Assembly: GCA_903822185.1 (NCBI GenBank)
Contig: CAIJOA010000011.1
Location: forward strand, 1 to 64,000
Reading direction: 5' to 3'
Length of the DNA stretch: 64,000 nucleotides
Source of the DNA: an uncultured Rhodospirillales bacterium
Lineage (GTDB): Bacteria > Pseudomonadota > Alphaproteobacteria > ATCC43930 > CGMCC-115725
Shown here: positions 56,599-63,003 of the stretch, piece after piece
Position numbering within the stretch: position 1 is the first letter of the stretch
Layout: each line of letters begins with the position of its first letter
Position numbers and translations under genes: made by a program
Notes under the pieces: model-generated
What the model saw: only the letters and a program-made list of their open reading frames with translations
What the model was told of the DNA's origin: nothing
The model's database searches: none

Positions 56599-58554
56599 AT
56601 GATGTTCGGGGCAATCAGCCAATTCTTTTCATCCGCGGGGGCATTGCCCTTAGGCGCGTGCCTGACCTGGGCGCCGGGGTTATTGGAACTTCATGCCGGG
56701 GCTGACGCCCTGATCGCCTTGTCGCTTTATTCGATCCCCGCCGCCTTGATCTATTTCGCGCACAAACGACGCGACTTCGCCGGCATGTGGCTGCTCGGCC
56801 TGTTTATCCTTTTCCTCATCGCCTGCGCCACGACTCATGTCTTGGGCATTTGGACGCTGTGGTATCCGGCCTATGGCATGGACGGCATGGTCAATGTTCT
56901 GACCGCCGCCTTGTCGGTACCGACCGCGATTGCGTTCTGGGCCGTCATGCCGCGCGTCCTGACCATCCGCGGTCTCGGCCGCCTTCAAGACGAAAACGAA
57001 GCCCTCGAACGCCGCATCCAGGAACGAACCAACGAACTGAACCGGCTCAACGCTCAGCTTCAAAACGAAATTAAAGAGCGCAATGCCTTGGTCGAGCAGT
57101 TATTGGACGCTCATACGACGCTGAGCGCGATCATCGACGCCTCACCGCAAGCGATCGTGACGCTCGGCCTCGACCGCAAGGTCTCGAGCTGGAATGCCGC
57201 TGCCGAAAGCATCTTCGGCTATCCGGCAAGCGAGATGCTCGGCATCGATTCCGTGCCGAAGATCGCCGCCGGTTACGAATCCGAATCACGCGCCATGATG
57301 GAACCGATCTTCGCCGGCAAGGTCGTTCCGCGCGTCGAAGCGCGGCGGCGGCGCAAGGATGGCGAGGAGATTTATCTCCGCCATTCCCTCGCCCCGTTCC
57401 GCGACCCCAACGGCGCCGTGACCGGCATCGTCGTCATCAGCGAGGACATCACCCGCTACAAACATGCGCAGGTCGCCTTGGTCGAACGCGAGGCACGCAT
57501 GCGCTCGATCCTCGAAACCGTGCCCGACGCAATCATCGTGATCGACAGTAACGGCGTCATCGAATCCTTCAGCCCAGCCGCCGAACGACTGTTCGGTTGG
57601 AAAGAAGCCGAAGTCGCCGGCGAGAATGTCAAAATGATGATGCCGTCGCCCTATCAGGAAAGCCATGACGGGTATCTATCGCGCTATGCCGAAGGCCGAA
57701 TCGCGCTGGGCCGCCGCAAAGACGGCAGCACCTTCCCGATCGAGCTTGCTGTTGGTGAAGTGCTGCTGCAAGGGTCGCCGCGTTTCACCGGGTTCGTTCG
57801 CGACATCACCGAACGCCAGACGACCGAAAAGCGCCTGCAGGATCTGCAGTCCGAACTGATGCATGTTTCGCGCCTCAACGCGATGGGCCAGATGGGCGCG
57901 GCGCTGGCGCACGAACTCAATCAGCCGTTGGCCGCGATCACCAACTATCTTCAGGCCAGCCAGAATATGATCGCGCGGCAGCTCGGCACGGTGCCGCCGC
58001 GCATCACCGAGGCGATGGACAAGGCGCTCGGTCAGGTCATGCGAGCCGGCGATATCATCCGCCGCCTGCGTGAATTCGTGACCGTCGGCAAGACCGATCG
58101 CCACCCCGAGCCGATCAATAAAATTGTCGAGGAAGCAAGCGCCCTCGCCCTTATCGGCGCGAAGAGCGGCAACGTCACGATACAGATGGAACTCGACCCG
58201 GCGTTACCGCCGGTGCGAATGGACAAAATCCAAATTCAGCAGGTGGTGGTCAATCTCGTCCGCAATGCCGTCGAGGCAATGAGCGACGTCGCCCGCCGCG
58301 ATCTGACCATCCGAACCGCGCTGGATGCGTCAGGAAATATATTGGTGACGGTCAGGGATACGGGCCCTGGCCTCAGCGAGGCCGTCGCCAGCCGGTTGTT
58401 CCAGCCTTTTGTCACCAGCAAATCCAGCGGGATGGGCGTCGGGCTATCGATCTGCAGTTCGATCGTCGAGGCCCATGGCGGGACAATCTGGGGCCGGACC
58501 AACACCGATGTCGGCACGACCTTTGGTTTCACTCTGCCGTTCGCCGGAAACTAG
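56599..58554 (+). CDS. PAS sensor histidine kinase with ethylene-receptor-like membrane domain (FixL-like)
   Basis: A 651-residue kinase. Three N-terminal helices (about 33-120) contain ADALIALSLYSIP and LIACATTHVLGIW, matching the ethylene/Cu(I)-binding domain of ETR1-type receptors; Asp36, Pro47, Cys76 and His80 align with plant Asp25, Pro36, Cys65 and His69. A coiled coil leads to PAS-1 (about 165-285) and PAS-2 (about 292-415). PAS-2 has SHDGYLSRY with His356, the FixL haem-ligand position, but the FG-loop Arg (Arg220 of Bradyrhizobium FixL) and several residues are missing. HisKA carries LAHELNQPL (His438); HATPase has NAVEAM, DTGPGLS and GMGVGLS. Known FixL kinases sense O2; ligand binding here is inferred. 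No paired regulator is adjacent. Confidence 0.9.
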   Translation: MMFGAISQFFSSAGALPLGACLTWAPGLLELHAGADALIALSLYSIPAALIYFAHKRRDFAGMWLLGLFILFLIACATTHVLGIWTLWYPAYGMDGMVNVLTAALSVPTAIAFWAVMPRVLTIRGLGRLQDENEALERRIQERTNELNRLNAQLQNEIKERNALVEQLLDAHTTLSAIIDASPQAIVTLGLDRKVSSWNAAAESIFGYPASEMLGIDSVPKIAAGYESESRAMMEPIFAGKVVPRVEARRRRKDGEEIYLRHSLAPFRDPNGAVTGIVVISEDITRYKHAQVALVEREARMRSILETVPDAIIVIDSNGVIESFSPAAERLFGWKEAEVAGENVKMMMPSPYQESHDGYLSRYAEGRIALGRRKDGSTFPIELAVGEVLLQGSPRFTGFVRDITERQTTEKRLQDLQSELMHVSRLNAMGQMGAALAHELNQPLAAITNYLQASQNMIARQLGTVPPRITEAMDKALGQVMRAGDIIRRLREFVTVGKTDRHPEPINKIVEEASALALIGAKSGNVTIQMELDPALPPVRMDKIQIQQVVVNLVRNAVEAMSDVARRDLTIRTALDASGNILVTVRDTGPGLSEAVASRLFQPFVTSKSSGMGVGLSICSSIVEAHGGTIWGRTNTDVGTTFGFTLPFAGN

Positions 58555-60777: not shown

Positions 60778-61176
60778 TCAGCCGACGCGCATTGGCGCTT
60801 TGGTCAGCCAGCGATCGACACGCGCGAGCAACGATTTCGCATCGAACGGCTTCGTCAGGAAATCGTTGCCGCCGACTTTGATGCCTTCCTTGACGTCTTC
60901 GATCGTCTTACGTGCCGTGCAGAAGATGATCGGCACAGTCTTCCCCGTCGGGAGCATCCGAATCTGGCGGCAGGTTTCGTAGCCGTCCAATTCCGGCATC
61001 TGAATATCGAGCAGGACGAGATCGGGAAGCACTTCGGGAATCAGTTCGACACAGCGTCGGCCGCTGCGCGCGACGATGCAGCGATGGCCGGCCGAGCGGA
61101 TCACCGCGTTGAGAATCTCGATCATCTCCGACGCGTCATCCACAATCATGATCGTTTTGGATTTAAGTTCGATCAT
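60778..61176 (-). CDS. single-domain CheY-like response regulator
   Basis: A 132-residue receiver domain with no output module. The acidic pocket is Asp13/Asp14 (IMIVDDASEM), the phospho-acceptor is Asp57 (LLDIQMPELDG), and Thr87 and Lys109 (CTARK, LTKPF) complete the switch. GGAAA lies upstream of ATG 61176. It is 36 bases downstream of, and co-oriented with, an uncharacterised gene, and the nearest histidine kinase is 2 kb away. It probably acts by protein contact with a partner. Confidence 0.92.
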   Translation of the reverse strand: MIELKSKTIMIVDDASEMIEILNAVIRSAGHRCIVARSGRRCVELIPEVLPDLVLLDIQMPELDGYETCRQIRMLPTGKTVPIIFCTARKTIEDVKEGIKVGGNDFLTKPFDAKSLLARVDRWLTKAPMRVG

Positions 61177-61212
61177 TAGCGCGTTTCCACAATGTTCTGC
61201 ACGCATCGCCCC

Positions 61213-62589: not shown

Positions 62590-63003
62590 TCAGCTCGTCG
62601 TGATCGCCGCTAAAGCAGCCTTGGCCACGATGACATCTTCTTCGAGTTGGGCGCCGCCTGCCGCGACACCGCCGATGACCTGTCCGTCCACTATGATCGG
62701 GAAGCCCCCCGGCACGTTGGTGAAATCACCGTCCATACGGATCTGCATGCTCAGCACGTTCTCTTCGGGCGCATATCCCGTCGGCAGACGCTGTGAGGCG
62801 GAAGTGATCGCTTTCTTCGTAGTCGTTCGGCCCGAAAAGAACCGCGCACCGTCCATCATGATGAAAGCCAAGGTCTGGCCGCTGGCATCGACGACGCAGA
62901 GGCTGATCTTCACCCCGATCTCATTTGCCTTGGCGAGCCCGGCTGCCAACATCTTCATGCTCGCTTCGTGGGTGATACGGTGTGTCGCGGCAAAATCCGG
63001 CAT
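62590..63003 (-). CDS. GlcG/HbpS family protein (DUF336)
   Basis: A 137-residue protein with the typical start THRITHEASMKMLAAGLAKA, the CVVDASGQTLAF strand, RMDGARFFSGRTTTKKA-like segment and C-terminal FPIIVDGQVIGGVAAGGA, matching the heme/cobalamin-binding HbpS-like GlcG family. Several members bind haem or tetrapyrroles and associate with degradative enzymes; the role here is unknown. It is a single gene. Confidence 0.9.
   Translation of the reverse strand: MPDFAATHRITHEASMKMLAAGLAKANEIGVKISLCVVDASGQTLAFIMMDGARFFSGRTTTKKAITSASQRLPTGYAPEENVLSMQIRMDGDFTNVPGGFPIIVDGQVIGGVAAGGAQLEEDVIVAKAALAAITTS

Follow-up and report, generated by a model that had tools for sequence, protein, structure and literature searches.

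An ethylene-receptor-type membrane domain on a FixL-type histidine kinase with apparently remodelled sensor sites

Can a single histidine kinase monitor two gases? The question is raised by a gene in a 64,000-nucleotide stretch of DNA (contig CAIJOA010000011.1, hereafter the window) from an uncultured Rhodospirillales bacterium. In a first-pass annotation its product was proposed to hold two gas-sensing sites, one of the copper type known from ethylene receptors and the other a haem site in a FixL-type PAS domain. The proposal survives in part: the ancestry of the domains and the residues that would ligate metal and haem agree with it, but a tyrosine, a lysine and the FG loop have changed at the two sites. 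The reading that we prefer, and hold to be reasonably probable, is that of a membrane-anchored FixL-type kinase which acquired its ETR1_N domain in a separate fusion, both sensor sites having since been remodelled, and which would work with a FixJ partner.

Gene and domain architecture

The ETR1_N-kinase gene is genuine, and the first reading of its domains holds, all of them scoring above their Pfam cut-offs:

56599..58554, + strand: sensor histidine kinase, 651 aa, with the order ETR1_N, PAS, PAS (FixL type), HisKA, HATPase_c (open reading frame, Pfam)
56680..56964, + strand: ETR1_N membrane domain, residues 28-122 (PF25487; Pfam 103.6 bits, cut-off 27)
57136..57456, + strand: PAS-1, residues 180-286 (Pfam); by alignment, the FixL haem position lacks a histidine
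57496..57807, + strand: PAS-2, FixL type, residues 300-403 (Pfam, alignment, structural match to FixL)
57883..58080, + strand: HisKA, residues 429-494 (Pfam 30.3 bits, over the cut-off)
57910-57912, + strand: phospho-acceptor His438 in ALAHELNQ (position in alignment)
58222..58545, + strand: HATPase_c, residues 542-649 (Pfam 87.1 bits, cut-off 26.4)

A profile search found no ETR1_N domain in 14 control genomes, and the match to FixL has an E-value of 5.8e-44; both domain matches are far beyond chance. The initial description of a kinase uniting an ethylene-receptor-like membrane domain with a FixL-type PAS was right as to the ancestry of the two domains. The ETR1_N match is the sole one in its genome, and none was found in the one other genome of the genus. 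At least one is present in 8 of the 43 genomes of the order and in 28 of the 385 of the class, its own genome being counted in each.

In AlphaFold2 models, residues 1-134 form three long helices and short ones (mean pLDDT 86.3), with helices at residues 26-56, 63-88 and 92-122, and residues 289-421 adopt a PAS fold (mean pLDDT 80.3). No solved ETR1_N structure was found either by sequence (best E 0.23) or by fold (none at E 0.001). The kinase core looks intact, and the membrane domain would anchor and probably dimerise it.

The two sensor sites

The residues of the membrane site that matter most here are the following:

56704..56706, + strand: Asp36, equivalent to ETR1 Asp25, kept (alignment)
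56725..56727, + strand: Leu43 (CTT), replacing ETR1 Tyr32 (alignment, codon)
56824..56838, + strand: Cys76-Ala-Thr-Thr-His80, the copper-ligand motif (ETR1 Cys65 and His69), kept, with Ala77 for Gly66 (alignment; ligand role from PMC6586836, in part)
56893..56895, + strand: Asn99 (AAT), replacing ETR1 Lys91 (alignment, codon)

Asp36, Pro47, Cys76 and His80 stand where they were first placed and fall, in the alignment, on the columns of the ETR1 residues that we take to be D25, P36, C65 and H69. This numbering agrees with the residue names in the available text of PMC11819568 and PMC8879215. Cys65 and His69 are the copper ligands of ETR1 (PMC6586836, in part), and beside Asp36, Cys76 and His80 the window protein keeps Ile46, Pro47 and Phe72 (ETR1 Ile35, Pro36 and Phe61). 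ETR1 Ile62 has become Leu73, a mild change.

The substitutions at the two remaining positions are found in no other protein of the sample, which consists of 113 relatives: 33 ETR1_N matches from genome searches and 80 (of 369) from genome_contigs, with L015/L089, L011/L098 and L013/L126 each probably one gene counted twice, and with L022 and four further matches left out. The search pattern behind the 80 loci fixed Phe61, Cys65, Gly/Ala66 and His69, so that the counts at these positions are biased; Tyr32 and Lys91 lie outside it. At the Tyr32 column, 109 of the 113 relatives have Tyr, three Cys and one Val, against Leu in the window; at the Lys91 column, Lys occurs in 110 of 113 and Glu, Leu or a gap in the rest, against Asn in the window. 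When only the 107 relatives with the copper Cys are considered, Tyr is present in 106 (L040 has Val) and Lys likewise in 106 (L043 has a gap). The reverse combination is seen in the ETR1_N proteins L019 (G010) and L020 (G011), which have Gly for the copper Cys and keep Tyr32 and Lys91. The bacterial PHG motif, moreover, reads PLG in the window, Leu18 replacing a His that is present in 28 of 28 other rows of one alignment, whose rows were chosen from the 80 genome_contigs loci. This His is likewise absent from L019, which lies outside that alignment.

The exchanges Y32A, F61A, I62A, C65Y and H69A are described as reducing ethylene binding by ETR1, the measured change at Tyr32 being to Ala and that in the window to Leu (PMC8879215, in part), and ETR1 Lys91 is described as a partner of Asp25 that is involved in output (PMC11819568, in part). 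The window protein thus carries natural substitutions at residues tied both to ethylene binding and to output. Since the Tyr and the Lys that nearly all sampled relatives keep are lost, high-affinity ethylene sensing seems unlikely: with its ligands still in place the domain may have retained copper binding, and it has probably lost tight ethylene binding. In a tree of 108 membrane domains, which rests on few columns, leaves the position of so long a row unsure and omits L040-L045 as degenerate or odd, the end branch of the window is the longest (1.42, median 0.12); from this we infer changed or relaxed constraint.

Alternatively, one of the sites may still be at work, the membrane domain binding Cu(I) together with low-affinity or non-ethylene ligands and PAS-2 acting only as a dimerising relay. 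This we regard as possible but doubtful. It would account for the retention of both copper ligands along with Asp36, Ile46, Pro47 and Phe72, and for the loop that PAS-2 has lost (see below); the longest end branch, with the relaxed or changed constraint it points to, is less easily accommodated. The same six residues conversely weigh against the remodelled kinase that we prefer, for their joint conservation would be hard to explain in a useless copper site.

At the second site, two features are of concern:

57664..57666, + strand: His356, equivalent to the FixL proximal His200 (alignment)
57685..57699, + strand: site of FG-loop loss, 9 residues (27 nt, in-frame), at Tyr363-Ala-Glu-Gly-Arg367 (alignment)

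His356 falls, as had been recognised, on the proximal histidine of FixL (His200 of BjFixL) in the HMMER match to Bradyrhizobium FixL 8js5 (E 5.8e-44). The FG-loop arginine, which had been thought missing, is present: Arg367 aligns with FixL Arg220, and it is nine residues of the loop that are gone instead (FixL residues about 210-218, counted from His200 in the 8js5 alignment, with gap edges that may shift by a residue or two). The absent arginine was accordingly the wrong reason to expect a different mode of haem signalling, and the loop is the real difference. The loop of FixL is described as bearing distal-pocket residues and haem contacts; Pro212, His213 and Ile216 are named as loop residues and Ile215 as part of the distal pocket, all of them moving with the ligand (PMC10765370, in part). 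The lost stretch covers the residues named in that text, our count from His200 placing the loop Pro and His one residue above its numbering.

Among 56 FixL-type PAS domains, which are the best matches to PAS-2 itself rather than a random set and include the window as L130, the spacing from His to Arg is 20 in 54 and 11 in the window. The other exception, L184, has a spacing of 12 and Pro for the proximal His, so that the window alone combines the His with the absence of the loop. In another ETR1_N kinase, L027 (G399), the FG loop of the FixL-type PAS is short as well and the His is absent; given this case, the loop may have been lost more than once.

The best structural matches of the PAS-2 model in Foldseek and VIA-align are FixL structures (8js5, Z 18.7, 2.0 Å over 133 residues; 2vv6, chain 2vv6_C of 104 residues, Z 17.0, 1.1 Å over 95 residues), and the predicted fold is that of FixL; haem binding is still conceivable. 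In this model His356 could yet face a pocket large enough for haem, although its helix is covered by two blocks with pLDDT 68 and 59, the second being the least certain of all, and the underlying alignment holds five sequences. PAS-1 was discarded as a haem site for want of a His at the FixL haem position. Because PAS-2 has lost most of the FG loop, switching by O2 in the manner of FixL would be unlikely, the proximal His notwithstanding.

It might be supposed instead that PAS-2, its pocket now open, still takes up haem and signals either haem itself or the redox state, the membrane domain being only an anchor. We find this rather unlikely. His356, Tyr359, Arg362, Arg367 and Leu383 are identical to BjFixL in the alignment, FG214 provides an example of a haem PAS with other ligation, and FlrB is a kinase reported to sense haem itself (PMC13060918, in part). 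Against this, the stretch that has been lost takes in the loop His and the Ile residues of FixL (PMC10765370, in part), and no other His-bearing domain of the 56 lacks the loop.

Origin of the fusion and the candidate response regulator

For the kinase half, the match to the FixL kinase in 8a7f has an E-value of 3.4e-84. In a tree of 78 kinase halves, this half falls into one group with 49 of the 53 non-ETR rows at an SH-aLRT of 92, a value from a quick search that lies below the program's mark of 95. The 24 other ETR1_N rows, among which at least two genes are each represented twice, fall outside this FixL-type group, L076 adjoining it on a very long branch; the window served as query when the rows were picked, a choice that biases the set towards FixL-like ones. 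Among the 49 grouped rows is L144, whose PAS scores 279.6 bits against BjFixL. As the kinase half groups with FixL-type kinases and apart from the 24 other ETR1_N rows, we infer that ETR1_N joined a FixL-type kinase in a fusion separate from those of the other sampled ETR1_N kinases. The end branch of the kinase half is itself long (0.7, median 0.25), and the faster change is thus not limited to the membrane domain. The FixL equivalog model NF041777 gives 479.6 for the window, under a cut-off of 850 that is strict: the full-loop FixL-type kinase encoded in this genome at C11:312 kb reaches 464.4.

Close relatives of the fused protein were sought in several collections. Exact peptide patterns of residues 1-130 gave 592 pattern matches in genome_contigs and no close full-length orthologue or other relative among them, and patterns from the whole protein gave 14 matches in viral_contigs, again with no relative. 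Searches for a full-length orthologue in 39 genomes of the family (E 1e-150) and in 385 of the class (E 1e-140, best three candidates per genome scored), the own genome being included in both, each returned one other match, which begins at residue 171 and has no membrane domain. A match on an Azospirillum lipoferum plasmid that seemed to begin at residue 75 is no fusion; a stop lies in frame before the annotated gene start. Among the papers listed for both subjects, as far as titles and the openings of abstracts reveal, none describes a protein that joins an ethylene receptor to FixL. The window protein is a new arrangement of known parts, an ethylene-receptor membrane domain on a FixL-type kinase, and stands apart from the other sampled ETR1_N kinases. 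A FixL-type kinase would have gained the membrane domain by this separate fusion, and the remodelling of both ligand sites would have followed.

A FixJ-like gene lies within the 1.5 kb flanks of 45 of 55 FixL-type loci (in three of these the match covers just the receiver part); none was found within 1.5 kb on either side of the window kinase. Of three GerE matches in the genome, a single one is strong, namely FixJ (NF006900, 260.9 bits, cut-off 255). Its gene is on contig C39 (L186:3882-5377; G000:C39, about 52-54 kb), a different contig from that of the window kinase, with no FixL alongside. A Crp-family gene is divergent from it and has FixK as its best model (171.2 bits, under the cut-off of 300). 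The window kinase would most likely pass its phosphate to this one clear FixJ of the genome, encoded beside the FixK-like regulator.

Two other kinases of the genome that are close to FixL could use the same FixJ. The first (L046:6467-8077, - strand; G000:C11, about 312.5-314.1 kb, at C11:312478) is of FixL type and has a full FG loop and Tyr for the proximal His; its neighbours, named by reading the open reading frames, are cytochrome-like and photolyase-like. The second (L187:2810-3610, - strand; G000:C39, about 157 kb) is a FixL-like kinase of 267 aa that has no sensor domain; the gene divergent from it carries a receiver domain at its end. In a further kinase of this genome, L005 (G000:C39, about 218-219 kb), the FixL-type PAS retains His and Arg at a spacing of 20; judged by these residues, this kinase is a better candidate O2 sensor than the window kinase. 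Within the window, a stand-alone receiver gene is found at 60781-61206 (- strand), about 2.2 kb downstream and on the opposite strand, with PleD as its best NCBIfam model (99.1 bits, far under the cut-off of 474). An HbpS-like protein, of a haem-degrading family, is encoded at 62593-63003 (- strand), about 4 kb from the kinase gene.

One gas, two gases or none

The original idea was a dual sensor in which a Cu(I)-loaded membrane domain would bind ethylene and the haem of PAS-2 would bind O2 or NO, both feeding one kinase. The copper ligands, Asp36, His356 and Arg367 are all kept, the PAS-2 model fits FixL, and a two-input kinase with the same membrane domain has a precedent in SynEtr1, which responds to ethylene and light (PMC11819568, in part). 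However, the equivalents of Tyr32, Ile62 and Lys91 have changed, the His of the PHG motif is lost and the FG loop is nine residues shorter, and we now consider such a sensor very improbable; Leu43, Asn99 and the shortened loop are what demoted an ethylene-plus-oxygen sensor from its place as the leading reading. Metal-ligand residues alone are insufficient to call a protein a gas sensor.

Better candidates are to be found among the relatives. A FixL-type PAS scoring above 60 bits is present in 7 of the 113 ETR1_N rows, corresponding to six distinct genes, a count that may miss some because several ETR1_N proteins end at the edge of their locus. In four of these genes, L089/L015 (L089 from an Alphaproteobacteria MAG), L024 (G343), L096 (Methylomicrobium sp. 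RS1) and L017 (G013), the PAS retains His and Arg at a spacing of 20, and Tyr32 and Lys91 are kept. Two of the four look the most FixL-like:

L089:3896-6346, + strand: ETR1_N kinase with a full-loop FixL-type PAS (alignment)
L024:313-1920, - strand: ETR1_N kinase with a full-loop FixL-type PAS (alignment)

As a possible ethylene-plus-haem sensor, L089 and L024 are each more promising than the window protein, although the motif alone is no proof of haem, and they would make the idea of an ethylene-plus-oxygen kinase testable. Like the window protein, all four genes combine ETR1_N with a FixL-type PAS in one kinase; unlike it, the three whose kinase halves were placed (L089, L024 and L096) lie outside the FixL-type group.

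Hardly credible, finally, is a repurposing of both sites, the membrane domain reporting copper or a non-ethylene small ligand and an open-pocket PAS-2 reporting haem supply, with output to FixJ; if true, it would mean that one FixL-type kinase gauges two metal cofactors of respiratory oxidases and not two gases.

The remodelled kinase that we favour may be set beside three known systems. Like FixL of Bradyrhizobium and Sinorhizobium, it keeps the proximal His and the G-strand Arg, and its PAS-2 shares 54% identity with BjFixL in the structural alignment; unlike FixL, it is without the nine FG-loop residues and an adjacent FixJ gene and has an ETR1_N membrane domain. AzoEtr1 of Azospirillum brasilense resembles it in that PAS and histidine kinase come after an ETR1_N membrane domain, in which the Asp, Cys and His are kept. 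AzoEtr1 differs in keeping all seven ethylene-binding residues as well as Lys98 and in having a receiver gene just downstream (PMC11819568, in part), whereas Leu43, Asn99, the presence of two PAS domains and a kinase of FixL type set the window protein apart, and no receiver gene adjoins its own. SynEtr1 of Synechocystis likewise joins an ethylene-binding membrane domain to a second input in one kinase, that input being light rather than haem (PMC11819568, in part).
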